Source: Halichondria panicea (Eukaryota; Porifera; Demospongiae; Suberitida; Halichondriidae). Taken from it: 64,000 bases of DNA. The notes under the pieces were generated by a model. The model saw only the letters and a list, made by a program, of their open reading frames with translations. It made no database searches and was not told the DNA's origin. Location: contig NC_087382.1 of assembly GCF_963675165.1 (NCBI RefSeq), forward strand, positions 6,062,315 to 6,126,314, read 5' to 3'. The position numbers and the translations under genes are program-made. This document shows positions 60 through 61,850 of the stretch, one piece after another (within the stretch, counting starts at the first letter, position 1; each line of letters opens with the position of its first letter).

Positions 60-3000
60 AGGTGATCACATGTTCACCACTTGCACCTCCTGTCAATGGA
101 ACCCTCACGTTCACTCCTGGTGTTGATAACAGCAACATTGGACTGGGATCAGTGGCCACCTACTCCTGTAACCTCGGCTATGTGCTAGTGGGACAATCTA
201 TAAGAGAATGTCTAACTACAAATGGTGGAGCTTGGAGTGGATTGGTCCCTATATGTGAAGGTATCTAATGTACCATCATTACCACGTAACTAGATGTATA
301 AGGGATTTGCAATGTCATACATAGTGATTATGTAATGCAGTTTGTTAAAAACATGTACTGCTATCTTTGATAAGTATTGTGTAGCGTGAGTGTGCACCAG
401 TATTTAATTTAGTCTTGCGAGCAGCCGTCGAAGGGGGAAGGACGTCTGGTAAAACCCGCCGCTTTTCCATGAGCCCATTTTGGAATGTGTCGCACCAATC
501 AGATTGCCAGATTTTAATATTTTGGGTGGGGTTTTACGTAACCTGTAGAAAGGAAATGTGCACTATAAAGAAAAGCAGCTATAGATCTACATGTAGACGC
601 CAGAGTGTAGAAGCCTAAAAGCTAGACTAGCTGCTGCTATTTGATTTGTGACAGTGTTGCTGCCATAAAGCTAGGTTATAAGGAGCTCAAACCCAAACAA
701 AAGTTAGCTGTGTGAAGGAAATGTGTGCAGATCTGGAGACGTGTTGCTTATCTGGGAGCAGCTTTTGAGGGAACAGTGCGTCCTGTAGTGGGACTCTGTA
801 GCAGACTCAGTATTATGACATGTTCTGACAACATTTAAATTATAGTGACATAATAATTAATAATCATACACATATCACATTCCTGAGTATCATGGAAAAG
901 CGGCGGGTTTTACCAGACGTCCTTCCCCCTTTGACGGCTGCTCGCGAGACTATATTTAATTAAGGACTGTCCGAAGATGATAATCATATAATTATTATGC
1001 AGAGGCTGTCTTCTGTCCAATACTAACGGCCCCAGGCAATGGTAGTGTGACTATCAGTTCTGGTGTCAACCCCCTCAGTGTGGGGTCAGTGGCTACCTAC
1101 TCATGTGACCCAGGTTACGCCCTCCTGGGACCCCCCACCAGGGCTTGTGAGGACCCAAACACTGACTCAGTGGGAACATGGAACGGAACAATGCCAGATT
1201 GTGAAGGTGAAGTTGTGATCAAACTGTCTCTAAGTGAATACCCTGTGGTTATTAGATGCCAATAATTCAATAGGGGATCAAACGTTGGTCTCGCTTAAAC
1301 GCCTCACCCTGGAACCTCAGTTAGGAATTTGAAGAAAAGTGTCCGTGTAGTGTTACTTTACACAATGTGATTTCTAGTAATCTTACTTATTGTACTAATG
1401 CGTAATACTAGAATATTTTGCGAGGTCAACATATGCGAATTTATATGCAAGTGTTGATCACTTCGCAAACGTAAAATTGCAAAATCTAAATTAGTACTGG
1501 TAATTAAACACGATTGCCAGAACGCAATAGTTTAGATTGCAAAGATTCAATTATTCTGCTGATTTGGCTCATTCGTGAAGGTTTTTCACCAGCAAGTAAT
1601 ATATAGCTACGGTACTTTGAACGTTTATTATTTCTCACAATTTATTTTGCTCGATGATTATTGTGTTGATTTCTTTTATAAGGTGTGTAACTCATTTTCA
1701 TAGTGATTCTTTGCCCTGAGATCATGGCCCCTGTTAATGGCACCCTCATCATTTCCACCCCCTCACCAACCCAACCTCTTGGTGTGGGCACCACTGCCAC
1801 CTACTCGTGTGACCCTGGCTATGTTCTGGTTGGTGATCTCACTAGGACTTGTGAAGACCCTGGAACTGGAACAGTAGTCGGAACTTGGAGTGGCTCAGAA
1901 GTGGATCCTACATGTGAGTATTTTGTGTACATTTTAAGTTTAGGGTGTACAGTTAATCACTGGAACATTTTTGGATCACTAGCTACATATGTACATAGTT
2001 TTTATTGAGATTGAATTTGCTAACTTAATTATTAAACTGGTAGTTTGCTCCAGGGTTACCTCCGTATGTGGGATAACCCATTTTAACTGCAGGTGCTATA
2101 CCAAACAGAGCTCTCATGGACTGTGAGGATACAACATGTCGATACGAACAGCTGGTGTGTCCCGATCGAGACAACTGTACAATAAACTGTAATGACACGG
2201 AACCATACGCTTGTTTCAGGACTGGTGTTGTGTGTCCGAGTGTGTTGGGAGATTGTAATCTCAATTGTGATGATTCTTTTGCATGCTTACAAGCTAACAC
2301 CACATGCCCTCAAGGGAACTGTAATGTGAACTGTCCGAGTGATTACTCATGTCAAAATTCAGTGATGCAATGCTCGGGTGACAACTGTCTCCTATCCTGT
2401 GAGGGCCAAGAATCATGCTCGTATTCAACTATCGAATCCTCAGGGGAAAACTACCTACTCAACTGCGAAGGACAAGATTCATGCTCTTATTTAGACTCCG
2501 AATGTTCGGGTGAAAGTTGCCGCACAAATTGTTACAATGACCGATCATGCTCACACTCAACCTTAGACTGCTCTAATGGAAACTGCAGCTTACACTGCAC
2601 TGATGAGCATTCTTGTCAATATTCGACAATGATGTGCTCACAGGGTACCTTTTGTGATGTGAATTGTATCAATGAAGTGCGAGCATGCCAGCAGTCCGAA
2701 TTTGTGTGTGAACAAGGCAGTACCTGTGTCTTCAATTTCGATGGAGGGAACAATGGTGACTATATTGGCTCGAGTACAGACATCACATGTGAAGAGAACA
2801 GTACCTGCAGCATCAGGTGCACTGGACTGCGTAATAATGCTAGTCACCAATGTTCTAATGCTGATATCATCTGTCCCACGAGTAATGGAGAGTGTACTGT
2901 TGAGTGCAGTGGTTACTATTCCTGTCAATTGTCACGCATTACATGTGGACCAAATAGTGACTGCTTAACTTGTAGCGGAGAGTCGTCATGCCGTGAATCA

Positions 3001-3390
3001 ACTATCACACTACAAGCCGGTTCAAATGCACCTATTATGAACTGTAATGGCCTTTCATCTTGTCAATCCTCTCGTATCACTTGCCAAGCTAACAACAATT
3101 GCAATATCAACTGTAATGCACAGAACTCGTGTCAATCCTCTACCATCATTTGCCCAACTAACAACAACTGCACTATCAACTGTGATGGCCAGTATTCCTG
3201 TAATAATGCTCGAGTGACCTGTCCCACTGGAGACTACAACTGCAACATACGCTGCACTGACCCACTGTCCTGTCAAGGCTTGAGTATCACCAACACACAC
3301 AATGTCAACCTGCTCTGTTGTGGTGGTCCCACTGCTTGTGCAGGAACGAGTGTGGTACCCACCTCCATCGAATGCCCCTACATTAATTAA
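60..3390 (+). CDS. Sushi (CCP) domain protein with C-terminal cysteine-rich repeat domain, 5' end outside window
   Basis: Four exons are visible: 60-260, 1003-1206, 1704-1913 and 2093-3390. All splice in phase 1 with AG/GT borders. The first three each encode one sushi domain of 67-70 residues with four cysteines, the PVNGT and GSVATYSC motifs, a GYVLVG-type segment and a late tryptophan. Such domains are extracellular and bind proteins or glycans in complement-like and adhesion proteins. The last exon (about 432 residues, TAA stop) is one long array of cysteine pairs spaced roughly 20-24 residues apart, with recurring NCNINC- and SCQSSTI-like units. It looks like a disulphide-ladder solenoid; I recognise no named family. 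Signal peptide and any membrane anchor lie outside the window. The damaged relative at 5.5-12.65 kb starts with a membrane segment and coiled coil, so this gene may too. Ligand unknown. Confidence 0.85.
410..952. mobile_element. MITE-like element with 62-bp terminal inverted repeats
   Basis: Bases 410-471 are repeated as the reverse complement at 891-952 with very few mismatches. The 8-bp sequence tatttaat lies at 401-408 and again at 953-960, consistent with a target-site duplication, with one extra base on the left. The 420-bp interior has no convincing gene. It lies in the intron between the first two visible sushi exons. An 8-bp duplication would suit a hAT-type origin, but that is inference. 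Confidence 0.75.
1400..1614. repeat. Dispersed repeat, family also at 33201-33409
   Basis: This intronic stretch shares a long, collinear, diverged sequence with 33201-33409, including the shared words aaattagtactggtaa and ctgctgatttggct. The better-preserved copy begins with taccgta and ends with tacggta, so this is probably a small non-autonomous DNA transposon. Confidence 0.65.
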
Positions 3391-9811: not shown

Positions 9812-12399
9812 GTTATGGAATCATTGGAATCTGTTCTGTTCTGTCCACAGAGGCTAATATGCATTATGGGTTGTATCTGGTTTTCACTAACTGACACTGA
9901 AAAATAAACACTAGTTTATGGTCTTTAACTAGCCAATATGCTCCTTCTCAACTCTATTATCCTGATTTAGGAGCTAAATTATGCCGAAATACTAATGTTA
10001 TAGATGAATAAAGGGAAGTAGGCAACATTATTTTTCTGGTATACCTGGACTCTGCAGCGCTGATGAGCAGAGAGAGAGACGAAAATTGTACTGTTTTTTC
10101 TGGCAAGAAGGTTTGCACCAAGCAGAAGATTCAGCCCAATTAATGCAGTTTTATGATCAACTGCATGAGGATCAACTGCATGAGGCTACGTCAATTCGAA
10201 GGTAGGACAATTCGTATAGTGCTGAAATTTTAGTTGTCGCAATTGTTTGTCAATCACATATTACATCAATCGTTTGGCAATAACTGATTTATTATGTATA
10301 TAATAAGAGAGCTAACTGTTTGACAATGTTCCCAGTCACCCACGCATACGCATAAGCCAAGGGATTCATTGATCTGCTACTTCTCCTGTTAATCAGTTTA
10401 CATTAGCTTTGCTGGTTTGATTGTCTGTCTGAGCTTTAACATGGCATGTACACAATGCACATGCAGTCATTGCAGGTATATGAGAATGGAACAGCAATTG
10501 ATCTGTCACACAGTGCTTGTTAAACTGTGCATTGACATCATGCAATTTTGATCTGATCAGCTCCATGCATATGCTCAATTAGTTATCTTAATTTCTTCTT
10601 TTCCTATTTTTCATCCACCTATTTTCTCAAATATGCTACTATAAATTATTGATTCTGAAATGAATTACACTGATTTTAGGAGTCTAATGAGTCTGTGCGG
10701 TATAGCAAGATGACGTACACGTAGAACAAAACTACAGCCAGCTGTGTATACATGTAGGTAGTCTTCTATACATGTATTCAAGCTGTGAGAAAACAAGCTG
10801 CTGGCAGTTTTTTTGCTTAGAAACTTACTTGTTAGTGCCTATATTTTTCATATCGAAATCTGCCTATTTTTCCTAGCATTATTCTCAATCCTCATAAGGA
10901 CCTATTTTTCCTGAGATCCATAATTATGACATGAGGCTCAGTTAAACTGAAAAAACGAATTGTCGTACCCTCAAACTGACATAGCCTCATGCAGTTGAAT
11001 ATATGCATTTGATTTAACGTAGCCTCAGTGTCATGTATGCATGCAGGGCCATTGTACCCCTACTGCTGTTGACCAATGAGATTTTAAAAAATGTGCATTT
11101 GAAAACTGTATTAAGGACTGTATTATGTCATTCCATATACACTTAAAGCAGTGACTGTATCATTGTAAACCGTAGCAACCACATAGCACACATTTTCCCT
11201 TCCACAAACCCACCACAGTACATACATACACAGTGCTTCCCTGCTTTCAATTGCAAATAATTATACATTGCATGGTTTCTGGCTTAATTGCCCTTGGGTG
11301 ACCTTGTTCGCAGATGTCGCAGTTGACAGTACTTTGTTCTTGTAACTTAATAACAGCAGTAGACAACAGAAACAGCATAATACTCATACATACATTGCAC
11401 AAAACTCAAAAACTTATATACAGAACACATACTCTAGAATGTTCTACAGTGCCTGTAACCTAGGGAGTAGAATACCACACATTTGTGAATTTTGGTACAT
11501 AAATGTGAATATCTTGACATTAAAACATTTCTAAGAAATTTTGATGATACCAAAGTGTAGGCGAATGCTTGAGCTTCAATATATCCAAACATGTTTCCAT
11601 GGCAACCTGAGGTGGTGGGTATGTGGTTGCTTTTACAACAGCAACAAATTGTTTTAGTGAGCAAAAGCTTAGGGAGGAAAAACACCAACCGTTGTCGGCT
11701 AAGGTCTGGAACTCTGGCATAACATCAGTGAATAGTTTAGCTAACATATGCATGGATTAAAATCGTTTACATAAGTACACACGCTGTTTCGTACTCCATT
11801 ATGTGTGTTTTTGGGTGCCTTTTCGCTTAGGGAGAGATTTCAAGTAAAATTTTCGGCTAAGGTCTAATTTTTGTACACATGTATTGTTAATAAATTGTGT
11901 ATCTTTTGGTAGAAGCAATTTTTCCAGAAACACTTTACTTACAGAGATAATTGATGTTATATACATTTTCTTACGATCATCCCCGTTTTCACCTAAATGA
12001 TTTTCCACTCTAACAATTTTTTAGAAATAATTTTGAATACGTTTGTAGCTTATTCATTCACCTACACAATGGTATCAGCACAATTTCTTAGAAATGTTCC
12101 AATCTCAAGATACACTTACAGTTGTACTACTCACCCTATGGTGGTATTCTACTCCCTAGGTTACAGGCACTGTACCTAGTTCTCTAATGTCAAAGTTCAG
12201 CAGCAGCTACAGTTCTAGAACAAACATTACTAGAAGAATTTAGATGTACAGTCTAAGTGAAGAGTTCACTTAATCACTACACTTGTGATTACCACTTGAT
12301 CAATTACCTCCTCTAACAGGCCTGGGAGCATTAACACAGTCTGTCTTATACATACGATTATTATAGGTTGATTTCACAACTCAAATGTTTAAATTTCAG
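9812..12399. other. Long remnant intron of the decayed sushi gene
   Basis: There is no supported gene here. It contains the inverted-repeat element at 11447-12172 and several atgaggctacgt-like words repeated in both orientations between about 10170 and 11030. Confidence 0.5.
11447..12172. mobile_element. MITE with about 110-130-bp inverted repeats and TA flanks
   Basis: The left end (cagtgcctgtaacctaggga) returns as its reverse complement at 12153-12172. A second inverted block pairs the regions near 11520-11570 and 12055-12100. TA dinucleotides flank both ends (11445-11446 and 12173-12174), as for Tc1/mariner-type insertions. No transposase is encoded. Confidence 0.75.
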
Positions 12400-12653
12400 G
12401 TGCTATTCCGAACAGAGCTGTCGTAGACTGTGAGGACACAACCTGTCGATACAAACAGCTGGTGTGTCCCGATCGAGACAACTGTACAATAAACTGTAAT
12501 GACATGGAACCGTACGCTTGTTTCAGGACTGGTGTTGCGTGTCCAAGTGTATTGGGAAATTGCTCTCTCAATTGTGATGATTCGTACGCCTCCATACAAG
12601 CTAACACCATATACCCCCAGGGGAACTGTAATGTAAACTGTCCGAGTGGTTAG
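12400..12653 (+). pseudogene. Truncated cysteine-rich exon
   Basis: It begins at the same acceptor context and codons (AIPNRAVVDCEDTTCRY) as the exon at 2093 and is highly similar for about 250 bp. Similarity ends abruptly after NVNCPSG, and a TAG follows at 12651-12653. One conserved cysteine is also lost (tac in place of tgc near TIYPQGNC). The missing end of such an exon appears at 29195-29345. Confidence 0.85.
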
Positions 12654-12892
12654 CTTTGTATATAAGAAGGTTCTGTACTGTGCTCTGTGTGTGTGTTCTA
12701 TTCTACCCTAGCTTGTTGCAATCAAGAATATTTATCTGTGTTAAAGTGAAGACAATTAACAGATACAACACATACAAATTAAAATAGCACAACCATTTTG
12801 ACTATAGTAACATTAAACAATTGCCAAGGGCAGTAACTGTTGGAATTATAATTACATTATTTTATGTGTACATGTATGTATAATAAGACAGT

Positions 12893-15800
12893 TCACACTT
12901 CATTACTTATGAGGCCTATTTCTGTGTGTGTAACAGCAGGACGACGGTTGAATTTTGGAGGGGGAGGGGCTGGTCTGTAGTCCTCTGTGGTGAGGGGGGC
13001 TAGTACGTCCAGGGCAGGCTCTCTCAGCTGGTCTGGCCTCGTGGCTGGTCTGATGATGGGAGGGGTCATGTAACGATCAGGGTCAGCTTCTTCCATGGCT
13101 CCATCAGTGTAAGGTTGTGGGTCCACAATGCCTATTTGCTCAGCTAAAAGTCCTTCATTGTCATCGTCATCAATTTCATTTGCTGCCAACAGATGTATTT
13201 CCATGGCATTGTTAGGTTCTCGGTTCTTTTTGTATGCAACACCAGTTGTCAAGTTTTTTGCGACTTGCTTTATCTTAAGCCATGTCTTGGTCTTCTTTAG
13301 TATGAATTGGTGGAAATGGTAGCTGATTATTGTCACAAAGAGAATGAAAGCTATGGACATTGAAAGAATGGTCAGTGTTTCTTGCTGTTGGTGTGTTTCA
13401 ACAACATATGAAGTGCCAATAGATAGAATACCGAGATTAAACAAAAAGAATGTTTCTAGATATTCGTTAAGTTGCTTTTTGTGCACTCGATTGGTCAATG
13501 ATATCAGTCCGAATGCAATACACCCAGATGATAGAACAGGGAGAGAAGTGTTTGGAGCCATGGCAACTACTAGATTATGTGCAATCAGAGCAAAAAGGAG
13601 CAGCCCCACCCAGTAGCGATGCTTGGGAGTGAATGGAGCATGGTATACATCCATGAAACCATTGTAATATGTGTTCTTGGTCCATATCATAACCTTGGAA
13701 CAGCGAGGAAACCATTGTCCAAAAAAGAGTAATACAGTGAACAATCCACCGGCAATGAGGATAATGGCTGCAGCAACAAACCGAGGGATGTGATTGGGAG
13801 TGAAGTATGGTACATTACCATCAAACAACCAAACAGTCTTGGTTGAGCCATCAGGATATTTCAAGACCCTATTTTGTAGTGCAGCAACGATAAACCGTAA
13901 GAATTTAGAATAAGAGAGTAAAACGAGTGTGCCTAGGGCAGCAACTGGGTTCCTGTTGGAGAGAAGCTTTGCAAATAAGTCAGAGTACTTACTTAAAATG
14001 ATTATTAAGAATACTAGAAGAAACAAGTAAGCAGGAAAGACGAGTTGAAGAAGCACTTTTGCTTGAGAGTTCATTCCATCGTAAAAGCATGTCTCGATTC
14101 CCAGGTCAAGATTCACCCATGATATGAAAACTGTTACAAAGTTGTTTAGTTTAGGAAAGAAAATGGCTCTATTAGCAGCTACTATGTTGGCGTAAAATAT
14201 GAGGCCATGAATACTTCCAGTTGCTATAGTGATGTTGAGCACGAGAATTAAAGCAACTAGCAATATCCCAACGAGCGCAAATGGTATTAGTAGAAGAAGG
14301 TAAAGATTAGAGCATTCTTTACAATTTGACGTAGCCAACACAATACTGAGTCCTGATTCACATTCTCCACACAAGACACCACTTCGATTGTAGGCACATT
14401 GTTTGTCAGGGCTACTTAGGCTGATGTTGACTGGTTTTTCTACACAATAGTCAAATGTGCAGTTACTAACAACATACCCCGTTCCATTGGTAGTTATGAA
14501 TTCTATCCATATGTTGTTATTACTTTCCAGCTTTAAAATTCCATTTTCCTCAGAACAGTTTATTATCTGATATTGTTCCAAGTCTGGATCACAGTCACAC
14601 TTGCACTCAGTATCAGACTGAATTGGTTTGAGTCCAATAGGGCATGTGCAGGGTAGAAAAGAAATATTGATAATTTGTCTTGAAATTCCCAAATTGATGC
14701 ATGGACCCTCGGCATAGAGTTCCACTTGAGCAGAGCTGTCTTGTGAGAATACACTGTACTCTAATTCTGTACACTGATTGCCAACTTTTTGTTTTGCCTG
14801 TCCTTCTTTGAGACGACCAACTCCACTCTCAGTGACAACAGAACTATAAATTGTGGCGTTCACTGGATTTCCAACTTGGTCAATAGCCATAAAACTGATT
14901 CTAAATGTGTGTCCCTTTCTTGTATATGTTAAATGTTGCGAATTGTTACAAAACATTACTCGAACAGGCCTAGATGAGATTGCTAATTCGGTGGAGGATT
15001 TTACGGTACTATTTGTGTAATCAAATCCGTTTGAAGAACTGTTATATTCAGCATTTTGAATTGCTGTACACCTATCCAACAGACCTCCATAGATGTCTCC
15101 TCCTGACTGGGTAGCTGTGTTGTTAGTCATGAATGTGTTGAAGTGGTTTATTTCTATGTTCAACGTGTATCCATACGAATTGATTGTTTGAATAAAGCAA
15201 TCCTTAAAAATTGTTTGAGTAGCATCAGTTTCTATGACCCCACCTCCACACACACTCCTTTGTGTGTCATCTGCCACAAATATTCCCCCTCCGTGCTGAG
15301 CTGAGTTGTTTTTAATCGTTAACGTGACTAATGTAATATCTTGAGGCTTTTCTACCACATCTTCATAGTGTTTTTTAAATAAGTACAGTCTCGAACTTTG
15401 CTGTAGAAACACTCCACCTCCTTTAGCACTTGCTGTGTTTGAGTCAATGTTAACATGTGCCTGAGTTAGTTCAATGGTTGTAGCTACTGCATAAATACCT
15501 CCGCCATTCTCGGCAATGTTGTCAACAATCTCACTGTGTTTATTTGTGCCCCTGAAAATTGGTAACACAGATTGAAATTCAACTTTGCTAAAATAAGTAT
15601 AAATGCCTCCACCATTCTGTGCTGTGTTGTGATAGATCTTTATTGTCTTGTTTACAAAAAGTGTACTCTCTCTTAGAAATATTCCTCCTCCAGAGGTAGC
15701 CGTGTTGTTTTTCAGTGTACTGTCGGAGATAGACACAGTACTGCCTAGGTTACCATAAATCGCTCCACCACTCCTGTCAGCTCTGTTGTTAGTCAGTGTG

Positions 15801-17800
15801 CTGTTGGAGATGAATATGCATACAGTGCCTGAGTAAACACTAATCGCCCCACCATCATAGCCAGCACTGTTGTTTGTTAGTTTGCTGTTGGAGATGGACA
15901 CGCTACCTGAACCAATACTAATCGCTCCACCAATATAGACAGCACTGTTGTTTGTCAGTGTGTTGTCGGAGATAGTCAGACTGCTAGTCAGACTGCTTGA
16001 AGTAACGTACAACACTCCACCATAGTCAGCTCTGTTGTTTGTCAATGTGCTGTTGGAGATGGACATATTGCTTGAGTCAACACTAATCGCTCCACCATAG
16101 TCAGCTCTGTTGCTTGTCAGTGTGCTTTCGGAGATGGATACACTGCTTGAGTAAACACTAAGCATTCCACCGGTGTTAGCACTATTGTTTATAAGTTTGC
16201 TGTCGGAGATGAACACACTGCTTGAGAAAACAGTAATCGCTCCACCATAGTCAGCTCTGTTGCTTGTCAGTGTGCTTTCGGAGATAGACACACTGCAGCT
16301 GAAACCAACACTGATCGCTCCTCCACCATAGTCAGCTCTGTTGTTTGTCAGTTTGCTGTCGGAAATGAACACACTGCTTGAGTAAACACTAATCGCTCCA
16401 CCATATTCAGCAGCTCTGTTGTTTGCCAGTGTGCTGTCGGAGATAGACGCACTGCTTGAGTAAACACTAAGCATTCCACCGGTGTTAGCACTATTGTTTA
16501 TAAGTTTGCTGTTGGAGATGGACACGCTACCTGAACCAACACTAATCGCTCCACCAATATAGACAGCACTGTTGTTTGTCAGTGTGTTGTCGGAGATAGA
16601 CAGACTGCTTGAAGTAACGTAAAACGCTCCACCATAGTCAGCTCTGTTGTTTGTCAGTGTGCTGTTGGAGATGGACATACTGCTTGAGTCAACACTAATC
16701 GCTCCACCACCAATGTTAGCTCTGTTGCTTGTCAGCTCACTGTTGGAGATGGAGACACTGCCTGAGTGAGCATAAATTGCTCCACCCCTTTTGTCAGCAC
16801 TGTTGTTTGTCAGTGTGCTGCCAGAGATAAACACTCTGCCTGAGTCAACATTAATCGCTCCAACAATCTCATCAGTACTGTTAATGTTGCGTGTCAGTGT
16901 GCTGTTGGAAATAGACACACTCCTGCCTGAGGAAAAAGCAATCGCTCCACCATCATTGTTAGCACTGTTATTTGTCAGTATGCTGTTGGAGATGGACACA
17001 CTGCTTGAGTAAATACTAATCGCTCCACCATACAGAGAAGCTTCATTATTTGTAAAGTTACACGAAGTGATCACTACTGTACCAGATACCAATTCTACTG
17101 CTCCTCCGCTCCAAGCACTGTTATAGTTGAACTCTGTGTTGTTGATCAGAGAGTTGTTTGATTCAATGTAAACTGCACCTCCATCATTTCTTGTGAAGTC
17201 GCTATTTGTTATGTACACATCAATAGCCTCAACATGCATTGCCCGGCCAGTGTTGTTCATAAAGAGAGTGCTTTTAATTGTTACAATTTGAGTATTAGCA
17301 ATCTTAACTAGGTGGGTTTCCACTTGATTGAGTAGTACAAAAAAGTTCATAAAGTAGCAGTCGTTGATATAGACATTGTGGGCACTGTCAATGGTCAAAT
17401 CTCGATGTGAGTTTCGTGGTCCAACATTCGCTCCATTAATGAAACCCAAGCGTTCAATACTCAATTCAGTGGTACTAAAAAAACGTATCACACCATTGCT
17501 ATAGAATCTAATTACAGCTGTACTTTTGCTCTGACTGGTAATATGCACATGTCTAAAGTTACGAATCAATAACTGCTCAGTTAACACATGATCTCCAGGT
17601 AGAAAGCTTAAGGTGAGATTGACTCCACCAGATAACAGGTCTGTTTGAACAAGCTGCTCGAGAGTGAAACAAGTTACATTTCGGTATCCATTGCACAAGT
17701 CAGTTGAATCCACCAACACAATTTGATAGTGCTCACTCCTGATAACAGTAACTATGGTCAGGAATAGCACTAACCAGTTGAGAATATTTCTAGACAGCAT
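12893..17800 (-). CDS. Parallel beta-helix repeat membrane protein (Pmp-like ectodomain, about 9 TM), intronless
   Basis: The first ATG of the frame (17798-17800) starts a signal peptide, MLSRNILNWLVLFLTIVTVI; the product is 1635 aa. Residues about 170-900 are a solenoid of 23-24-residue units (SISNSTLTNN...GGAISV), the pattern of right-handed parallel beta-helices also seen in chlamydial polymorphic membrane proteins. Many units carry an NNS/NNT glycosylation sequon. A cysteine-rich module follows at about 1050-1160 (CTCPIGLKPI, CECESGL-like motif LCGECESGLS), then about nine hydrophobic segments between 1165 and 1495, and an acidic, proline-rich cytoplasmic tail containing PAPPPP. Topology suggests a surface receptor or adhesion protein. 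The ligand is unknown and I know no characterised counterpart. It stands in tandem with the copy at 21245-25550. A single 4.9-kb exon is unusual beside intron-rich neighbours. Confidence 0.85.
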   Translation of the reverse strand: MLSRNILNWLVLFLTIVTVIRSEHYQIVLVDSTDLCNGYRNVTCFTLEQLVQTDLLSGGVNLTLSFLPGDHVLTEQLLIRNFRHVHITSQSKSTAVIRFYSNGVIRFFSTTELSIERLGFINGANVGPRNSHRDLTIDSAHNVYINDCYFMNFFVLLNQVETHLVKIANTQIVTIKSTLFMNNTGRAMHVEAIDVYITNSDFTRNDGGAVYIESNNSLINNTEFNYNSAWSGGAVELVSGTVVITSCNFTNNEASLYGGAISIYSSSVSISNSILTNNSANNDGGAIAFSSGRSVSISNSTLTRNINSTDEIVGAINVDSGRVFISGSTLTNNSADKRGGAIYAHSGSVSISNSELTSNRANIGGGAISVDSSSMSISNSTLTNNRADYGGAFYVTSSSLSISDNTLTNNSAVYIGGAISVGSGSVSISNSKLINNSANTGGMLSVYSSSASISDSTLANNRAAEYGGAISVYSSSVFISDSKLTNNRADYGGGAISVGFSCSVSISESTLTSNRADYGGAITVFSSSVFISDSKLINNSANTGGMLSVYSSSVSISESTLTSNRADYGGAISVDSSNMSISNSTLTNNRADYGGVLYVTSSSLTSSLTISDNTLTNNSAVYIGGAISIGSGSVSISNSKLTNNSAGYDGGAISVYSGTVCIFISNSTLTNNRADRSGGAIYGNLGSTVSISDSTLKNNTATSGGGIFLRESTLFVNKTIKIYHNTAQNGGGIYTYFSKVEFQSVLPIFRGTNKHSEIVDNIAENGGGIYAVATTIELTQAHVNIDSNTASAKGGGVFLQQSSRLYLFKKHYEDVVEKPQDITLVTLTIKNNSAQHGGGIFVADDTQRSVCGGGVIETDATQTIFKDCFIQTINSYGYTLNIEINHFNTFMTNNTATQSGGDIYGGLLDRCTAIQNAEYNSSSNGFDYTNSTVKSSTELAISSRPVRVMFCNNSQHLTYTRKGHTFRISFMAIDQVGNPVNATIYSSVVTESGVGRLKEGQAKQKVGNQCTELEYSVFSQDSSAQVELYAEGPCINLGISRQIINISFLPCTCPIGLKPIQSDTECKCDCDPDLEQYQIINCSEENGILKLESNNNIWIEFITTNGTGYVVSNCTFDYCVEKPVNISLSSPDKQCAYNRSGVLCGECESGLSIVLATSNCKECSNLYLLLLIPFALVGILLVALILVLNITIATGSIHGLIFYANIVAANRAIFFPKLNNFVTVFISWVNLDLGIETCFYDGMNSQAKVLLQLVFPAYLFLLVFLIIILSKYSDLFAKLLSNRNPVAALGTLVLLSYSKFLRFIVAALQNRVLKYPDGSTKTVWLFDGNVPYFTPNHIPRFVAAAIILIAGGLFTVLLFFGQWFPRCSKVMIWTKNTYYNGFMDVYHAPFTPKHRYWVGLLLFALIAHNLVVAMAPNTSLPVLSSGCIAFGLISLTNRVHKKQLNEYLETFFLFNLGILSIGTSYVVETHQQQETLTILSMSIAFILFVTIISYHFHQFILKKTKTWLKIKQVAKNLTTGVAYKKNREPNNAMEIHLLAANEIDDDDNEGLLAEQIGIVDPQPYTDGAMEEADPDRYMTPPIIRPATRPDQLREPALDVLAPLTTEDYRPAPPPPKFNRRPAVTHTEIGLISNEV

Positions 17801-18940
17801 CTCTCTGAGGTGAATGTGATGGTAATTGTTGTTATAATAATAATAATAATAATGTTGCTGCTCCAAGAATGGTTATGTACGTAGTACCTATTGTATACAA
17901 TGCATGCATAATAGTAACTGCAACGATAATTAATCTTAAACTCACTGTTTAATCGATGGTGCACTCTTTTTCTGTTTAACTACTTTTGCTATTCAATGAG
18001 CGCTTTAAATGTTGTGTTTTATAGTAATTGTCATATCCCATGCTCTTAGGGGAGTTTGAAAACATAAAAGCACCAGTTTTAACCACATAATGGCGGCCAT
18101 CTGCTGATCATCTGCTGTATAATACAGCAGATAGCCATTATTATTGTTGTCAGGTTGACCTATATTGCCATGTGGTTCTCCAGGACAGGGGTCCAGTTGT
18201 TGGATAGAAGCTAGCTCTAACATGTAAAGCATGAAGCCCCACACATAGAGCGCCTCCAGCGGGGCGGAAGGGCAAACGCCCTCCCTCCTGGACCCTGGAC
18301 CCACTCCCTATTGCCGCCTATCCCAGGAGTTTCGCCCCCATTTTTATTTTGTGCCCCCCCACCATATAATATCTACTTACGGCCCTGCCAAGAATATGAG
18401 AACACTATAGTATGTAGTGCTTGTATGGGTGTGCAGTATTCGGCTAGTGTACATCAATCATGGTCATATACATGCATGTACGTAGATTGCGTTAAGTTAG
18501 AGATTATAGCGTTATGGTTAGGGTTACCCCTCCCTTAGGCAGAAGTGGCTTGTTTTGCATAAGCATAATAATGCTAGGGAGATTTTGAACTAGAGACAGT
18601 AGTTGGTGGCTTTAATAACAGTGCACTGAGTCACTATAACCAAGCATTCATTTGTGGTGTATCATACACCACCAACTAGTCTCTAATTCAAAATGCTTCA
18701 ACCTATGCACTTGATGTGGTGAGCTTAGCTTCCTATACAAATTGATTGTGGATGCAAACAAACCACTGGTTGAGTGCAGTCAATCAACCATGACCACTAA
18801 TTGTATTGACAGTCTACCAACCATGACCACTAATTGTATTGACAGGCTAGTGAGTCTTCTACCAACCATGTCATGAGTACATTCTTGATCTTATGTAGCT
18901 TTTATTATGGGGTGCCGTTTGTCTCAAAACTAATAAACAG

Positions 18941-19054
18941 TCGATGTTTACCAAAGAGGTCGATGTTTACCAAGGAGGTCGATGTTTAGCAGCCAGGTCG
19001 ATGTTTAGCAACCAGGTCGATGTTTAGCAACCATGTCGATGTTTAGCAAAGCTA
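18941..19054. repeat. Minisatellite, six copies of a 19-bp unit
   Basis: The unit tcgatgtttagcaaccagg starts at 18941, 18960, 18979, 18998, 19017 and 19036. Early copies read ttaccaa and later ones ttagcaa. Confidence 0.9.
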
Positions 19055-19342
19055 CCAGATCACACAATGTGCAGATATTAGGGCGTGGTTTCTTGTGATA
19101 CGCCTTAATTAGAATTATGCTAGAGATGAATGCCGCCCCTAGCCCTAGGCCCTACTGCCTAATTATAGCCAGTGCTATTTTCATCTTCAGAATCTACTAA
19201 GTAAACCGCTGTTTGTAACAGCAGTAGTAAGAGCAATGGCTATAACATCTTGCAACTAGCCTCGACTCCAGCCTAGTCTGGCCACGCCCTCCCATACTTC
19301 ATATCTTGCAAAGAGGCTGGAAATCGAGACTAACTCCAGCCC

Positions 19343-19771
19343 AGAGGAGGCTGGAACCACTTGACCTTAGCTAATTAAGGTCACTAATTGGATTTATCCA
19401 AACCTCTCTTGCAGACTACTTCAAGCCTAGTTTTTAGTGTCTATCAGTTTAAAACGTTATTTTTTAGGGGAGGTCAAATTTTGTTTTCGCCAATTTTGCT
19501 CAGAAGCAGAGATACAATCAAAAGTCTTGCTCTTGCACTAGCCTCGATATCATGAGCGGCTTGTTTTCGAGGTCACTGCATACCGGCTTTGAAACTTGTA
19601 TCTCTGCTTCTGAGCAAAATTGGCGAAAATAAAATTTGACCCCCCCCTAAAAAATAAGGTTTTAAACTGATAGACACTAAAAACTAGGCTTGAAGTAGTC
19701 TGCAAGAGAAGTTTGGATAAATCCAATTAGTGACCTTAATTAGCTAAGGTCAAGTGGTTCCAGCCTCCTCT
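19343..19771. mobile_element. Fold-back element with about 173-bp inverted arms
   Basis: Bases 19343-19515 reappear as the reverse complement at 19597-19771, leaving an 80-bp loop. Divergence between arms is low. One arm end is found alone at 60599-60698, so this is a dispersed family. No coding sequence. Confidence 0.85.
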
Positions 19772-20276
19772 GACTCCAGCCCCTTGAATAGTGGGCCTGG
19801 TATTTACTGTTGGCGCGTGGGTGGACAATTAATTTATTATTTACCGTATTTATCTCATTGAACGTTAAAACAGTATTTTATCTAAAGAACAGAAAAAAGA
19901 AAAAGAGGCTACCTCTCTGTATACACTGTAGACAGAGACTGCTAAGTAAAACATCAGCTCTGTAGATTTATTCATTAACTTGAGGCTCGGATCGGATACA
20001 CACTCAGGCGACAAGTTAATCTCATAAGAAATTAGTTAAACCTGTGGGTAAAAAATAAATGTGGATAAGTACAGTGGCTGTGACGTAACATAATGTGAGG
20101 ACTACTTATTGATTTACACAATAGATTTACCATTGAAAGCACTATCCATTAATACACACTCAAGCAACAAGTCTCTTGGATCGGATACACACAAGTCCCT
20201 CGGATTGTAAACACATTCAGGCCACACAGTTCTCGGATCAGATACTACTTACTCTGTGACCAATTTTCGGCAAATG

Positions 20277-20625
20277 TCACAACAATACTTCCTTCCAGAG
20301 AGAATGGCACTGAACGTCGAACAGACACACCAACACTTTGAAGATGGCTTCACTCAGAGAAACAAGAGGAGAAATCACCATCACAACACTTTTTTCAGAG
20401 AGAGGTGCACTGGTCCTGTCAAGCTTCACATCAATCAAGAAAGGGAGTGTCTGGAAAGCAGATGGACTTGCTCTGGGACTTGCCATAGCCGGTCGGTACG
20501 GTACCCACATAAACACCAGCGTACAGACACTTCAACGCCTCCAGCTGCTTGTCTTTCAAGACTAGACCTGGTATTCCAACACAGGATAACGCGTACACGA
20601 GAGCAGAAGAGAAGGTAGCAGCCAT
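20277..20625 (-). pseudogene. RecQ-like DNA helicase fragment with frameshift
   Basis: From an ATG at 20623-20625 the minus strand encodes GIPGLVLKDKQLEALKCLY, then VPTGYGKS, a Walker A motif in the position expected for RecQ-type helicases. After a small insertion and a shift near 20445-20455, the next frame gives QTLPFLIDVKL and SVVMVISPLVSL (motif Ia region). No later helicase motif follows. The motif order supports a RecQ-family N-terminal helicase piece; whether it belonged to a host gene or a mobile element is not visible. Confidence 0.65.
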
Positions 20626-21244
20626 TACACAACTTGGACTAGATTTCTTTTTTTAAATGACATCATTATAAATGAAACGGATATCAATGTTTTACAAACT
20701 AATGCGGAATAAGAATACTGATAAATATACTGCAATTTACGATTACCAAGATTCTTGGTAATTCTGGCGCATGCGTAAACAGTGTATACCAGGCCGCCTT
20801 TCTCAGCGGCTTGGAATCGAGGCTACGTACGTACGTGCTGATGGCACCATCTAGAAAACAGTGGGCGTTGCCGACAAAAGGGGCGTGACCCAGGAAGTGG
20901 GCGTGGTCTAAATTTTGCGGCTCGCTTTGCGCGCAATGAGCACCCCCATTGACAGAATCCTAGGATCGCCCCTGTGTACCCGCGAACATTTCCCATTATA
21001 TACAGCATTTCTTTCTGAAAATCATCTCGTAATTGACCTCTGATGATGGTAGCCAAAAAATATATAGCCAACATTAATTTTTGTGGGAACTTGCAAATTA
21101 TAATAGCAAAACCATTTTTATCTCTTTTTAAACTATAGTAACATTAACAATTATTGTCAACAACAGTAATATAACTGTGTATACAATGCCTACGAACATT
21201 ATTTTATGTACTTGTGTGTATATATATATGCATAATAAGACAGT

Positions 21245-24200
21245 TCACACTTCATTGCGTATGGGGCCGATTTCTGTGTGTGTAACAACAGGATAACAGT
21301 TGGCTCTTTGAGGGGGAGGGGCTGGTCTTCTGTAGTCCTCTACGGTGAGGGGGGCTAGTACGTCCAGGGCAGGCTCTCTCAGCTGGTCCGGCCTTGTGGC
21401 TGGTCTGATAATGGGAGGAGTGATGTAACGATCAGGGTCAGCTGCTTTTACTGCTTCATCAGTGTAAAGTGGTGTGCCCACAATGTCTATTTGCTCAGCT
21501 ATAAATCGTTCATTGTCATCGTTATCAATTTCAAACTGATGCATTGCCATGGTATTGTTAGGTTCTCGGTTCTTTTTGTATGCAACTTCACCAGTTGTCA
21601 AGTTTTTTGCAACTTGCTTTATCTTGAGCCATGTTTTAGTCTTCTTTAGTATGAAGTGGTGGAAATGGTAGCTGATTATTGTCACAAAGAGAATGAAAGC
21701 TATGGACATTGAAACAATGGTCAGTGTTTCTTGCTGTTGGTGTGTTTCAACAATGTATGAAGTGCCAATAGATAGAATGCCGAGATTAAGCAGAAATATT
21801 ATTTCTAGATATTTGTTAAATTGGCTTTTGTGCACTCCGTTGGTCAATGTTATCAGTCCGAATGCAATACACCCTGATGATAGAACTGGTAGAAAAGTGT
21901 TTGGAGCCATGGCAACTACTAGATTATGAGCAATCAGAGCAAAGAGGAGCAGTCCCACCCAATAGCGATGCTTAGGAGTGAATGGAGCATGGTATGCGTC
22001 CATGAAGCCAATGTACTTTGTGTTCTTGGTCCATATCATAATCTTGGAACAGCGTGGAAACCATTGTCCAAAAAAGAGCAATACAGTGAACAATCCACCG
22101 GCAATGAGGATTATGGCTGCAGCAACAAAGTGTGGAATGTGATTGGGAGTAAAGTATGGTACATTGCTGTCAAACAACCAAACAGTCTTGGTTGAACCAT
22201 CGGAATATTCCAAGACCCTGTTTTGTAGTGCAGCAACGATAAACCGTAACAATTTTGAATAAGAGAGTAAAACGAGTTTGCCTAGGGCAGCAACTGGGTT
22301 CCTGTTGGAGAGGAGCTTTGAAAATGAGTCAGAGTACATGCTCAAAATGATTATTAAGAATACTAGAAGAAACAAGTAAGCAGGAAAGACAAGTTGAAGA
22401 AGCACTTTTGATTGAGAGTTCATTCCATCGTAAAAGCATGTCTCGATTCCCAGGTCAAGATTCACCCATGATATGAAAACTGTTACAAAGTTGTTTAGTT
22501 TAGGAAAGAAAATTGCTCTATTAGCAGCTACTATGTTGGCGTAAAATATGAGGCCATGAATACTTCCAGTTGCTATAGTGATGTTGAGCACGAGAATTAA
22601 AGCAACTAGCAATATCCCAGCAAGCGCAAATGGTACTAGTAGAAGAAGGAAAAGATTAGAGCATTCTTTACAGTTTGATGTAGCCAACATAACACTGAGT
22701 CCTGATTCACATTCTCCACACAAGACACCACTTCGATTATAGGCACACTGTTTGTCAGGGCTACTTAGACTGATGTTGACTGGTTTTTCTACACAATAGT
22801 CAAATGTGCAGTTACTAACAACATACCCTACTGTTCCTGTTGTGGTATTTATGAATTCTATCCATATGTTGTTATTACTTTCCAGCTTTAAGGTTCCGTA
22901 TTTCTCAGAACAGTTTGTTATCTGATATTGTTGCAAGTCTGGATCACAGTCACACTTGCACTCAGTATCGGACTGAATAGGTTTCAGTCCAATAGGGCAT
23001 GTGCAGGGTTGAAAAGAAATATTGATAAGTTGTCTTGAAATTCCCAAATTAATGCATGGACCCTCAGCATAGAGTTCCACTTGAGCAGAGCTGTCTTGTG
23101 AGAATACATTGTACTCTAATTCTGTGCACTGATTGACAACTTCTTGTTTTGTCTGTCCTTCTTTAAGACGATCAAATCCACTCTCACTGACAACAGAACT
23201 GCGAATTGTTGCATTCATTGGATTTCCAACTTGGTCAACAGCCATAACACTGATTTTAAATGTGTGTCCCTTTTTTGGAGAAACATAGTCACTTTGTGAA
23301 TAGTTACAAAACATCACCTGCAGGGGCCTAGAGGAAATTGATAATTCGGTGGAGGATTTCATGGTGTTATTTATGTAGTCCAATCCAGATCCATTTGAAG
23401 AAATTTCATATTCAGCATTTTGACTTATTTTACACCTATCCAACAGACCTCCGTAGATGTCTGCTCCTGATTGGATAGCCGTGTTGTTAGTCATGAATGT
23501 GTTGATATAGTTCGGATTATTGTTGTCCTCCTCATACAGTTTAATTGTTTGAATGAAGCAGTCAGCAAAAATGGTGCGAGTATCATCATCTTCTGTGACC
23601 ACTCCTCCACACGCACTCCTCTGTGTGTCATCTGCCACAAAGATCCCCCCTCCGTATTGAGCCAAGTTGTTGTTAATCGTTAACTTGACATACATACCAG
23701 TTCTTTTAAATAGGTACAGTTTCGAACTTTGCTGTAGATAAACTCCACCTCCACTAGCTTTAGCTGTATTTGAATCAATGTGAATGAGTAAATTTAATAG
23801 TTGAAGATACTGCATGTATACCCCCACCATTCTCAGCAATGTTGTGAGCAATCTCACTCAGTTTATTTGGAGGAAGTGGATCACCATATGCATCTACCAT
23901 CTGCACTGATTGGAATTCAACTCTGCTAGAATATGCATAAATCCCTCCACCATTCTGTGCTGTGTTTTGATATATCTTTATTGGCTTATTTACAAAGAGT
24001 GTACTCTCTCTCAGAAATATTCCTCCTCCAAAGGTAGCCGTGTTGTTGTTGATGATAACTCCTTCTGTGTTAACGTATACTTCACTCTGGACAATGCTGA
24101 TGGCTCCTCCCAGCATACCACGATTGTTACTGAGTGTCGTAGGTCCAATAAACTCGATTCGACTATTGAAAGCATAAATGGGACCATTGTTGCTGACAAT

Positions 24201-25550
24201 ATTAATTCCAGTGAATGTTACATTTGATTGCGAAATGTTCAAACTGCGTATGTTGTTAGTAATGTTAGTGTTGTTGATGATCAAGGTGGAAGATTGGAAG
24301 ACATCAATTACCCCACCTTCATTAGCAACGTTGTTTTTAAGCTCACTGTCGGAGATGGAAACAGTACCTGAGTAAACACTGATCGCTCCACCATAGTCAG
24401 CTCTGTTGTTTGTCAGCTCACTGTTGGAGATGGACAAATTACCTGAGTCAACACTAATCGCTCCACCCTCATTAGCAACATTGTTTGTCAGCGTACTGTC
24501 GGAGATAAATACACTGCCTGAGTAAACAATATAAATCACTCCACCATAATAGTTAGCACTGTTGTTTGTCAGCTCACTGTTGAAGATGGACACATTGCCT
24601 GAGACAACATTAATCGCTCCACCACTATTGGTAGTTGCACTGTTGTTTGTCAGCATACAGCCGGAGATGGATACACTGCCTGAGTAAACACTGATCGCTC
24701 CGCCGCCGCTGTCGGCACTGTTGTTTGTCAGCTCACTGTCGGAGATGATTACACTGCTTGAAACAGCAGTGATGGCTCCACCATACTGAGAAACTTTGTT
24801 ATTTGTAAAGTTACACCAAGTGATTACTACAGTACCAGATACCACTTTTAATGCTCCTCCGTTCCTAGCACTGTTATAGTTGAACTTTGTGTTGTTGATC
24901 AGTGTGTTGTTTAAATCAATGTCAACTGCACCTCCATCATTTCTAGTGAACTCGCTATTTGTTATGTACACATCATCAACCTCAATGTGCAGTGCCCGAC
25001 CGGTGTTGTTCATAAAGAGAGTGTTCTCAATTGTTGCAGTTTGAGTATTAGCAATCTTAACAACACAGGTTTCCACCTGATTGAGTAATTTAAAGTCCGA
25101 AAAGTAGCAGTCTTTGATATAGATATCATGGGCACTGTCAATGATGATCAAACTTTGATCAAAGTTTTGTCGTCCAATATTCCCTCCAACGAAACCCAAG
25201 TCTTCAATGCTCAATTCAGTAATACTAACAAAACGTATCGCACCATTGCTATGAAATCCAATTACAGTTGTACTTGTATTCTGGCCAGTGATTTGCACAT
25301 GTGAGAAGTTACAAATCAGTAACTGCTCAGTTAGCACATGATCTCCAGGTAGAAAGCTCAAGGTGAGATTGTCTCCATCAGATAACAGGTCTGTTTGAAC
25401 AAGCTGCTCGAGAGCGAAACAGGTTCCATTTCGATACCCATTACACAAGTCAGTTGAATCCACTGGCACAATGTGATAGTGCTCACTCCTGGTAACAGTA
25501 GCTAGGGTCAGTGGCAGTACTAACCAGCTGAGAATATTTCTAGACAGCAT
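21245..25550 (-). pseudogene. Tandem copy of beta-helix membrane protein, one frameshift
   Basis: Start chosen at the ATG matching the neighbour's MLSRN (25548-25550); an in-frame ATG at 25571 is also possible. It has the same signal peptide, beta-helix array, cysteine-rich module, about nine membrane segments and proline-rich tail as 12893-17800, but fewer repeat units. Near 23780-23800 a net loss of about 8 nt relative to the neighbour shifts the frame after STIKFTHSH; the other frame resumes at HIDSNTAKASGGG. Both halves are otherwise fully open and the membrane half is very similar to the neighbour, so the damage is recent, or is an assembly error, or is bypassed in a way not visible here. 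If real, the first half could be a secreted beta-helix without membrane anchor. Confidence 0.8.
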
Positions 25551-43458: not shown

Positions 43459-52707
<9,249 letters not shown>

Positions 52708-57958: not shown

Positions 57959-60070
57959 TCAGGCAGTTACTGTCGGCCTCATTGAGAAAATGATATCGTT
58001 TCCCAGATTACTATTGATGTAGCCAATGTCGTACTTTCCCACTTTCAGAGTGAGGCTTTTCCCTTCGTAGTTGACTTTATCATACACTAATCATTCGCCA
58101 AAGGTGACCTCAATAGAAGAAACAATGTTATTGAAATCTAGCGGAATAAAGCTCGAAATATCTTCGTACAACTTCAGGCTTTTCCCTTTGAAACTGCCAG
58201 CATCGTACAGGATTATCTCAGCAGGTCTAGCAGAGGAAATTACGTCACTTCCAATTTTCTCCGAGATAAATCCGAAGTCGTACTTCCCAACTCCCAGAGT
58301 GAGCCTGTACCCTTCGTAGTTGACGGACTCATAGACAGTCCACACACCACTCTCAACCTCAATGGAGGAGGCTTTGTTGTCGAAGCCGAGAGGAGTGAAG
58401 TTAGGGGTAGCTTTAGAAAGAGGAAGAACTTTCCCCTGAAAATAGCCAGTGTCGTACAAGATAAGTTTAGGTATCTTTCTGCAAGGGAAGAGGGAATCAT
58501 AATTACAATGGATTTATGTGAGAACAGTACATGCACATGCACAATGCCTAATAATACTTAAACTTCCATCTCACTATCTCTATACCTTCACTACACACGG
58601 CATTGTACATCTACTGCTAGTATACATGTATATATAGTCAAGGTGTCATACAGGGGGGAAGGGGGATATCCCCCCCTAGCTCCAATTCCCCCCCCCCTTT
58701 CAATTATGACTGAGTGTCCATACCTGGGCATTGAAATAACAGTTGACCTTTTTTTAGCAACATTTTCTGATTACTTTTCTCATTTCCCCCCTCTACTTCA
58801 AAATCCTGTATGACACCCTGATAGTACTATTTAAACATTACAGCATGATTACGTATTAGTATAGTGCTCACCTCAGTCCCACGGAAGAGATGACATCGTT
58901 TCCAAGAGTCTTGGTGATGTAGTGAAAGTCGTACTTTCCGACATTCAGATCGAGTCTTGCTCCTTGGTAATCGCAGTGCGTGTACACTGACCATTCACCA
59001 AAGGTGACCTTAATAGAGGAGACAATAATTATTGTTAAAACCCAATGAAATAAGGCTCTGAGCATCATACAACTTCAGAGTTTTCCCTTTGAAACCAGCA
59101 GCATCATACAGGGTTATCTCAGCAGGTCTAGCAGAGGATATGACATTACTTCTAATTCTCTCCGAGATAAAGCTGAAATCGTACTTTCCAACTCCCAGAG
59201 TGAGCCTGTACCCTTCGTAGTTGACGGACTCGTATATAGTCCACACACCACTCTTGACTTCAATGGAGGAGGCTTTATTGTCGAAGCCGAGAGGAATTAA
59301 GTTGGAGGCAGTTTTGGTGAGGGAAAGGGTTTTTCCTTGGAATTGGCGTGCGTTGTACAGGATAAGTGTGGGCATTTTTCTGTAAGGGGAAGAGGAATAT
59401 TCACAAAAACAATAAAAAGTGTACTTTAACATGCCACATTCTTTTAGATATAATTATGGTTTTTACTACTGTTTTCAAACAGTGTTCTCATGGCAATAAT
59501 TATGTTCACCTCAGTCCCATGGAAGAGATGACATCTTTCCCCAGATTCTTGGTGATGTAGTTTATGTCGTACTTTCCAACATTCAGATCGAGTCTTGCTC
59601 CTTGGTAGTCGACGTGATTGTACACTGACCATTGACCAAAGGTGACCTCAATAGAGGAGACACAGTTGTTTAAATCTAGCGGAATCAAGCTCTGAGTATC
59701 ATCGTACAACTTCAGGACTTTTCCCTTGAAACCGCCAGCATCATACAGGATTATCTGAAGCCGAGAGGAAAGAAGTTGGAGGTGCTTCGGTAAGGGGAAG
59801 GGTTCTTCCCTGAAATTGGGTCGCCTCGTACAGGATAAGTTTATAGGCATCATGCATTCTGCAAGAGAAAAAGGGAATTACACTATAGTAATTATTGAAC
59901 ACAAAATTAATTATCAATTCGCGAACAGTCGGAACAATTTAGCTCTAATTGAATGCATAAAATAAATATTATAATAAGAAGAATAATGCTTGGAATGATC
60001 ATTAAACTTATACTCACATATTGAAGCTTGACAGAGATTAAGCGATTGTTAATTTGTTCCTTGATGATAT
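57959..60070 (-). pseudogene. Beta/gamma-crystallin gene, left palindrome arm, damaged in all three coding exons
   Basis: Minus-strand exons: leader near 60020-60070, 59510-59858, 58872-59379, and 57959-58478 to the stop. Each full exon should encode four Greek-key motifs (LILYDxxxFQGK, WTIYESVNYEGYRLTLGVG, ITLYDAAGFKGK, WSVYxxxDYQGARLDLNVG). The calcium-site consensus N/D-N/D-x-x-S/T-S occurs as DNKASS, NNIVSS and NDVISS. Damage: a large internal deletion of about 150 nt and a 2-nt insertion in the first exon, a 4-nt insertion near 59035 in the second (508 nt instead of 504), and a TGA at 58091-58093 where the motif needs tryptophan in the third. After that stop the frame continues sensibly to TGA at 57959-57961. 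Confidence 0.8.
58639..58820. mobile_element. 182-bp MITE insertion with 5-bp target duplication
   Basis: The ends caaggtgtcatacagg and cctgtatgacaccctg are inverted copies, flanked by atagt on both sides (58634-58638 and 58821-58825). The equivalent position in the other palindrome arm (about 63810) is empty. Confidence 0.85.
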
Positions 60071-60110
60071 TTCAGAGCAACTGTCTGAGTTGGCCTAACT
60101 GCATGTTCTC

Positions 60111-60117
60111 TTTTATA
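60111..60117 (-). promoter_or_regulatory. TATA box of left crystallin copy
   Basis: On the minus strand the sequence reads tataaaa, about 45 nt before the conserved leader exon, and mirrors tataaaa at 62367-62373 in the other arm. Confidence 0.65.
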
Positions 60118-60598
60118 CTGCTCAACTTAATTTGTTGCATAATCTCATAATTATAATTATTGCTGCATAATTATTATTATTTGTTCCAGGAAGCAAAATA
60201 TTTTGATTAATCCCATATAGTGTAGAAGAGAAAATGATATCATATAAGACTAAGGTCCATATAGAGTGTTGTATCCTGTGTAGTCTAATTATAAGTATAG
60301 TTAAGATACTTTGATCTAACTGTGGTGGATTCATATAGTTGCAATTGTATCCTCAATTCCTGTAAAGTCTAATTATTAGTCTAGAAGATGCTTTGATGAA
60401 TCTATTACTGTACTGGTGGATTCATAAGTGTTGTATCCTCTATAGTCTATATAGGATGCTTTGATGAATCTGCATTATGCCAGCATGTGTAGAAAGAACT
60501 GATTAGAATGATATCATGTATTATGACTGGATCTAAGTGCATTCATTATTAATTGTTTGATAGTGTGTAAAGGAAATTATACTTTTTTTTTACTTACA

Positions 60599-60698
60599 GA
60601 CACTAAAAACTAGGCTTGAAGTAGTCTGCAAGAGAAGTTTGGATAAATCCAATTAGTGACCTTAATTAGCCAAGGTCAAGTGGTTACAGCCTCCTCTG
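60599..60698. repeat. Single arm end of the fold-back element family of 19343-19771
   Basis: About 100 bp nearly identical to 19671-19771 (agacactaaaaactaggctt through ccagcctcctctg). It sits exactly where the left palindrome arm ends. Confidence 0.85.
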
Positions 60699-61480: not shown

Positions 61481-61850
61481 CAGTAGACTCTCGTTAATCC
61501 GGTGAATAGCGAGGTGGTTGTATTTCAGGAAATAGCTACGGTAACCTTACCTCGAATCTAATGACTAATTTGCAGTTCTTGTCTCGAGGATAATGAAGGA
61601 TAATGAATAATGAATCATTCTGCTCTCTATTTAAGTGTAATCTGCCAAACCACACCCAAAACGTCGTATCCAGCCGTAATAAATGAAAACCTAGTTTGGG
61701 GCAGCCAGCACTGGCCAGTATACGGAATAACAAGTGGCTGTACATCAGGGTGAGTTTTGTGCAGTAAACATCTATAGCTAGCAATCCTTGCCTATATATC
61801 GAGGTGCACGTGGCCGTATACTTCAGAGAGCCGGAATAGCGAGTGTCTAC
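61481..61850. mobile_element. Pogo/Tigger-like MITE
   Basis: The left end cagtagactctcgttaatcc then gg and the right end ccggaatagcgagtgtctac then ta are inverted, diverged copies. The form of this end resembles Tigger/pogo termini as I know them. No transposase frame is seen. Confidence 0.6.

Follow-up and report, generated by a model that had tools for sequence, protein, structure and literature searches.

A large family of Pmp-type beta-helix membrane proteins in the sponge Halichondria panicea, probably diversified for recognition

A 64,000-nucleotide stretch of the genome of the sponge Halichondria panicea (NC_087382.1, positions 6,062,315 to 6,126,314 of the forward strand; here called the window) carries two neighbouring genes, copy A and a broken copy B, that join a Pmp-type beta-helix ectodomain to a membrane domain of about nine passes. 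The locus quite probably represents two of more than 100 genes of a surface receptor family that has expanded and diversified for recognition, a role argued from the pattern of selection. Diversifying selection acts on exposed sites of the ectodomain and spares the membrane anchor, as in diversified recognition receptors.

The ratio of nonsynonymous to synonymous substitution rates (dN/dS) was determined by region in 16 of 20 fetched long loci (longest frame at least 1300 residues). The four interrupted genes were tested apart; among the 16, L044 carries a stop codon in its signal peptide. Over the 120 pairs of the 16 genes, dN/dS was 0.24 in the membrane domain, 0.37 in the membrane-proximal part and 0.41 in the Cys module, 0.49 in the C-terminal helix, 0.52 in the N-terminal cap (N-cap), 0.56 in the rung array and 0.57 in the tail. 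The membrane unit is under purifying selection. An original prediction made from the window alone had proposed a variable region on a constant signalling part, and suggested comparing the substitution rates of array and membrane domain. Among paralogues this comparison (0.56 against 0.24) and the beta-helix sites with values above 1 bear the proposal out, but the tail does not, the intracellular side not being constant. The prediction also placed the variation in the length of the array. This length does differ, from 193 to 585 residues across the 16 genes, but specific exposed rung positions carry variation too.

The arrays were cut into 204 rungs with the 25-residue consensus GGAIxVxSGSVSISNSTLTNNSAxx. 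Entropy was maximal at rung positions 4, 6, 23 and 24, and the same four were recovered in 500 of 500 random gene halves. A pairwise codon model with a shared synonymous rate, applied to 8 disjoint pairs, gave a dN/dS of 2.37 at positions 4 and 6, 2.72 at positions 23 and 24, and 0.49 elsewhere. The pooled value at the four positions was 2.54 (bootstrap range 2.05-3.23), and it lay between 2.41 and 2.87 under four alignment filters. This model superseded IQ-TREE codon models of rung subsets, which had given a large likelihood ratio with the short subsets saturated. When the rates were held fixed, single positions gave 2.15 (position 4), 0.77 (5), 2.58 (6), 2.70 (16), 1.76 (23) and 4.17 (24). 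Five positions (4, 6, 16, 23 and 24) therefore have values of 1.8-4.2, and the remaining rung positions average 0.43 in the 16 genes, with values as low as 0.03 (position 12) and 0.01 (the Asn of FxxN). The five comprise the loop between the FxxN-like and GGAI motifs, the outward residues of the next strand and one residue before FxxN. The alternation at positions 4-5-6 is that of a predicted strand with one side facing in and the other facing out.

A held-out test was made region by region; the most variable 16% of sites were chosen in half of the genes and tested in the other half, in 12 splits. The dN/dS was significantly above 1 in 12 of 12 splits for both the array and the C-terminal helix, in 10 for the N-cap and in 5 for the tail. 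The membrane-proximal part (median 1.11) and the membrane domain (median 1.02) gave no such split among the 12, which shows that choosing variable sites does not by itself yield values above 1. When sites chosen from the first 16 genes were applied to 10 further genes, the C-terminal helix had a value of 2.50 (likelihood ratio test statistic, LRT, 13.9) and the tail 1.83 (LRT 6.2); the membrane-proximal part was at 1.11 and the membrane domain at 1.05.

The original prediction called for a count of family members but missed the scale of the family, which has at least 119-121 copies in the searched genome (131.5 Mb, 39 contigs). Profiles of Wnt (10 exon matches) and integrin beta (24 exon matches) hit this genome, which marks it as that of an animal, and its compactness and small number of Wnt loci suggest a sponge. 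The membrane domain has at least 121 matches, with 120 of 376 candidates scored, and the DNA motif encoding KHRYW(V/M)G occurs 119 times (0 for the reversed control). Contig 6, which makes up 5.8% of the assembly, carries 81 of the 121 matches. Sixty-one neighbouring pairs lie no more than 20 kb apart, mostly head to tail, with both members on the same strand in 56 of them. An open frame of at least 1250 residues accompanies 65 of the 121 matches; a further 13 are interrupted by stops within the match, and the other 43 have no stop there but a shorter open frame. The N-cap and the membrane domain share one frame in at least 57 genes with ectodomains of 822-1707 residues, a count that covers near full-length matches in long frames (57 of 142 N-cap and 57 of 121 membrane-domain matches). 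Measured against copy A, conservation is lower in the N-cap than in the membrane domain for 46 of 56 genes.

Family members also appear to have exchanged parts. The trees of the N-cap, C-terminal helix, membrane-proximal part, membrane domain and tail conflict, with p values of at most 0.0092 in 19 of 20 comparisons by the approximately unbiased test; the Shimodaira-Hasegawa test retains one comparison, that of membrane-proximal data on the membrane tree (0.059). Along the gene, paralogue pairs alternate between near identity and strong divergence. The conflict of regional trees indicates that paralogues exchange segments, and gene conversion or unequal crossing-over would be its simplest cause. 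Two pairs of matches on contig 6 (1274785/1391446 and 4477735/4503489) have equal or near-equal scores and frame lengths, and the first pair shares a stop; both are likely segmental duplications. The locus L028 (contig 6:3204076) has an open frame of 2847 residues, the median being 1545.

Copy A is a single unbroken frame of 1635 residues plus stop, with its ATG at 17800, its stop at 12893 and no coding intron. It exceeds the cut-offs of Pfam Beta_helix (E 2.4e-27), Chlam_PMP (PF02415; E 8.9e-27, 90.7 bits against 20.6) and NCBIfam POMP_repeat (TIGR01376; E 1.2e-11, 43.8 bits against 15). The array has a tandem repeat score of 1044 (16.9 copies of about 78 nucleotides) and is thus not a product of chance. 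The ectodomain has the fold of right-handed parallel beta-helix proteins. Structure prediction, which had been suggested as a check, gave no usable model of the membrane domain. A PDB sequence search with the ectodomain found no match up to E 1, and at the same limit the autotransporter beta-barrel PF03797 matched neither copy A nor the two frames of copy B. The predicted layout, a beta-helix on a nine-pass domain with an acidic, proline-rich tail, was recovered in this intact copy; its last 115 residues contain 22 Asp and Glu, 11 Lys and Arg, and 16 Pro. The proposed glycosylation has its sites, 33 sequons in residues 24-1185, which may be used. The proposed cysteine module is present, although DUF7630 (PF24633) matches it weakly, at 17.8 and 17.7 bits in the two window copies against a cut-off of 27. 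This family exceeds its cut-off at four places in the genome, three of them directly before membrane domains of the family. One above-cut-off match, at contig 2:466376-466471, lies in a 717-residue frame outside the 121 membrane-domain matches, possibly a relative with another membrane part.

Copy B has the same orientation and parts and lies upstream of copy A, between 25550 and 21245. Relative to paralogues it has lost 8 nucleotides near 23780, which splits it into two frames (Table 1), and it is probably a recent pseudogene; alternatively the break may reflect an assembly error or a null allele. A programmed frameshift or an intron was considered and rejected. In another family member, L048, a 4-nucleotide insertion interrupts the gene at this very site, and the two lesions are therefore independent; the site is possibly a mutation hotspot. 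The description of the locus as tandem intronless genes needs correction in that copy B is not intact. In addition, CTCAG precedes the start codon in many family copies and could be the splice acceptor of an intron in the 5' untranslated region, which would limit "intronless" to the coding part. The two membrane domains, described as nearly identical, are 91% identical over 334 residues, so that the wording was loose.

Table 1. Parts of the two gene copies, in window coordinates
Feature	Position	Strand	Basis or remark
Copy A, whole coding frame	12893..17800	-	uninterrupted open reading frame
Copy A, putative signal peptide, residues 1-21	17738..17800	-	hydrophobic N-terminus
Copy A, N-terminal cap and first beta-helix rungs, residues 22-225	17126..17737	-	
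Copy A, Pmp-type rung array, residues 226-735, 19 rungs of about 25-28 residues	15596..17125	-	rung pattern
Copy A, C-terminal irregular beta-helix rungs with hypervariable loops, residues 736-935	14996..15595	-	
Copy A, membrane-proximal ectodomain, residues 936-1134	14399..14995	-	no sites significantly above 1 in dN/dS
Copy A, Cys module, residues 1135-1166	14303..14398	-	weak DUF7630 match
Copy A, membrane domain, about nine passes, residues 1167-1500	13301..14302	-	
Copy A, cytoplasmic tail, residues 1501-1635	12896..13300	-	motifs DPDRYMTPP and EDYRPAPPPP
Copy B, N-terminal open frame from its ATG	23775..25550	-	signal peptide, cap, shorter array
Copy B, C-terminal open frame	21245..23857	-	beta-helix end, Cys module, membrane domain, tail; out of frame with the N-terminal frame
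Copy B, 8-nucleotide deletion site	23771..23790	-	relative to paralogues
Copy B, membrane domain	21650..22651	-	91% identical to copy A

Hydropathy over 17 paralogues shows a first transmembrane segment, two weak segments and seven clear helices. The loop charges alternate (-0.9, +2.1, -1.0, +4.8, a short loop, +1.2, -0.8). Together these fit nine crossings with the tail inside, in agreement with the predicted number of about nine. The AlphaFold model of this part also has nine main helices but a mean pLDDT of 36, and it was not counted as evidence. The domain includes a conserved intramembrane acidic motif, SWxNLDxGIETCF. It found no relative among PDB sequences up to E 10 and sub-threshold matches only in Pfam; PHROGs gave nothing useful. 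Pattern scans, which detect only relatives that share short conserved peptides, gave 27 matches in prokaryotic contigs and 19 in viral contigs, none of them a relative. By its sequence the nine-pass unit thus appears to be unclassified, matching no family tested.

In the tails, DRYxTPP is present in 23 of 26 and EDY followed by PAPP in 19; NPx[YF] occurs in 7, and there are acidic runs. The conserved tyrosines in their proline-rich context suggest adaptor binding. A sequence resembling an immunoreceptor tyrosine-based inhibitory motif, VTYTEI, is found in four of the 26 tails (L040, L041, L046 and L023); the others mostly have His, sometimes Arg, in place of the Tyr, and it was not used as evidence.

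A working model can be drawn from these features. The protein would be exported and its outer part would fold into a right-handed beta-helix of Pmp-type rungs. The Cys module and about nine passes would hold the receptor in the membrane, with a tyrosine- and proline-rich tail in the cytoplasm. The fast-changing rung positions may form a ligand-contacting face, so that each gene would present its own binding face on a membrane unit shared by all. The repertoire may be renewed by gene conversion, change in rung number, and gene birth and death, and the tail may relay a signal or drive uptake through its conserved tyrosines. Candidate ligands are self markers, microbes, food particles or glycans.

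Several observations weigh against a diversified recognition family. The arrays of the four interrupted genes, read piecewise, gave 1.27 at the four rung positions, which is indistinguishable from 1 (LRT 1.43), and 0.48 elsewhere. Of the 121 matches, 43 are in shorter frames and 13 carry stops, so that a large share of the family may be dead or fragmentary. Variation in the tail is as high as in the array, and no usable model of the membrane domain was obtained. The rung positions were picked from the same genes in which they were measured, the splits share ancestry so that their p values are optimistic, and the variation is that among paralogues, not alleles.

Relaxed selection with unequal crossing-over in a repetitive, partly dead family, and no recognition system at all, could account for the changing array lengths, for about half of the matches lacking a long open frame and for the value of 1.27 in the broken copies. 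It predicts a dN/dS near 1, whereas the values are 2.4-2.9 at the selected rung positions and 0.3-0.5 at their neighbours, and the signal is also present in non-repeated parts of the beta-helix; this explanation was already disfavoured and is very improbable. The same selection evidence would suit a diversified set of adhesion molecules, homophilic or heterophilic, that sort cells, strict allorecognition included; the beta-helix would then bind to other cells, with the nine-pass part as its anchor. According to one study (PMC6701047), adhesion is raised by trichomonad Pmp proteins, whose tails have NPx[YF] motifs and acidic clusters, and similar motifs and acidic runs occur in the sponge tails. 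A polymorphic self/nonself system in sponges, as described in PMC5450542, points the same way. About nine conserved passes (dN/dS 0.24), however, are more than a mere anchor would require. Adhesion is unlikely, though it deserves some weight, and the present data do not separate it from microbe recognition.

Two other functions were considered for the membrane unit. The proteins might be uptake or transport receptors, with a beta-helix that catches glycans, particles or bacteria for transport or internalisation by the membrane unit; the intramembrane acidic motif, the NPxY-type motifs of some tails and the polysaccharide binding of many beta-helix proteins would suit this. No transporter family was matched by the membrane domain in PDB sequences or Pfam and the fold itself shows no function, which leaves this explanation quite improbable. 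Chemoreceptors typically form large clustered families whose coding parts lack introns, and the present family has this layout. Its last seven passes might form a chemosensory or G-protein-coupled-like receptor with the N-terminus outside and the C-terminus inside, the loop charges placing seven helices between the outside and the cytoplasmic tail. No seven-pass receptor family in Pfam matched any of the 17 members up to E 5, there are two extra passes and the structural model is unusable; this is the least probable of the explanations.

A recognition family of this kind would work like known diversified receptors and would not be a chlamydial-type autotransporter. It shares with the chlamydial Pmp proteins (PF02415, TIGR01376) the rungs of GGA(I,V,L) and FxxN type in a right-handed beta-helix and, as described in PMC10715098, variable positions between the rung motifs. 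The present genes, in contrast, are animal genes with a Cys module, about nine helical passes and a cytoplasmic tail instead of an autotransporter barrel; their selected positions include strand residues, and the family is much larger. The trichomonad proteins are also eukaryotic, membrane-bound Pmp ectodomains, some with the same tail motifs, but PMC6701047 describes a conserved transmembrane domain and tail, not about nine passes and a DUF7630-like module. The open-licence literature, with most subscription journals outside its scope, yielded no work joining Pmp-type proteins with sponges or describing this architecture.

Lamprey VLRs are a diversified receptor repertoire built on a solenoid of leucine-rich repeats. 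There too, exposed fixed repeat positions change fast and buried ones stay, but the fold is different, and the sponge family consists of separate genes exchanging segments, with no sign of somatic assembly. Sponge aggregation factors, candidates for self/nonself recognition, are secreted Calx-beta/Wreath proteins. The present family differs in being a membrane protein, and the Pfam scan gave no Calx-beta match; no search was aimed at Wreath.

The window has other features around the two genes. Between copies A and B lies a fold-back element (19342-19772) with 146-nucleotide arms that are 94% complementary. A 231-base part has at least 81 genome matches (40 of 272 candidates scored), many 95-100% identical, and the element is probably a recently active one resembling miniature inverted-repeat transposable elements. 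A Sushi repeat exon at 1691-3390 is followed by a 437-residue Cys-rich repeat frame without a Pfam match, and a similar sequence adjoins copy A at 12389-12710. A sub-threshold ZU5 match (20.3 of 21 bits) occurs at 49716-50276, and the open stretches downstream of it, within 49716-52707, match no Pfam family. A beta/gamma-crystallin gene cluster occupies both strands at 58091-63740. Rfam and tRNA scans of the window gave 0 matches.

Sponges discriminate self from nonself, and also microbes, with behavioural precision, attributed to a polymorphic genetic system in one source (PMC5450542). The family is a concrete candidate for a sponge recognition repertoire, with named positions at which individuals can be typed. 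To our knowledge, the receptors behind these discriminations are poorly known. The family may even represent a new class of animal recognition receptor, a suggestion made tentatively: a beta-helix counterpart of the leucine-rich-repeat receptors, with more than 100 genes renewed by segment exchange and change in rung number on an unclassified nine-pass unit, serving as a sponge self/nonself or microbe repertoire. If this is true, the Pmp beta-helix, known mainly from chlamydial adhesins, would also serve as a diversified recognition scaffold in an animal.
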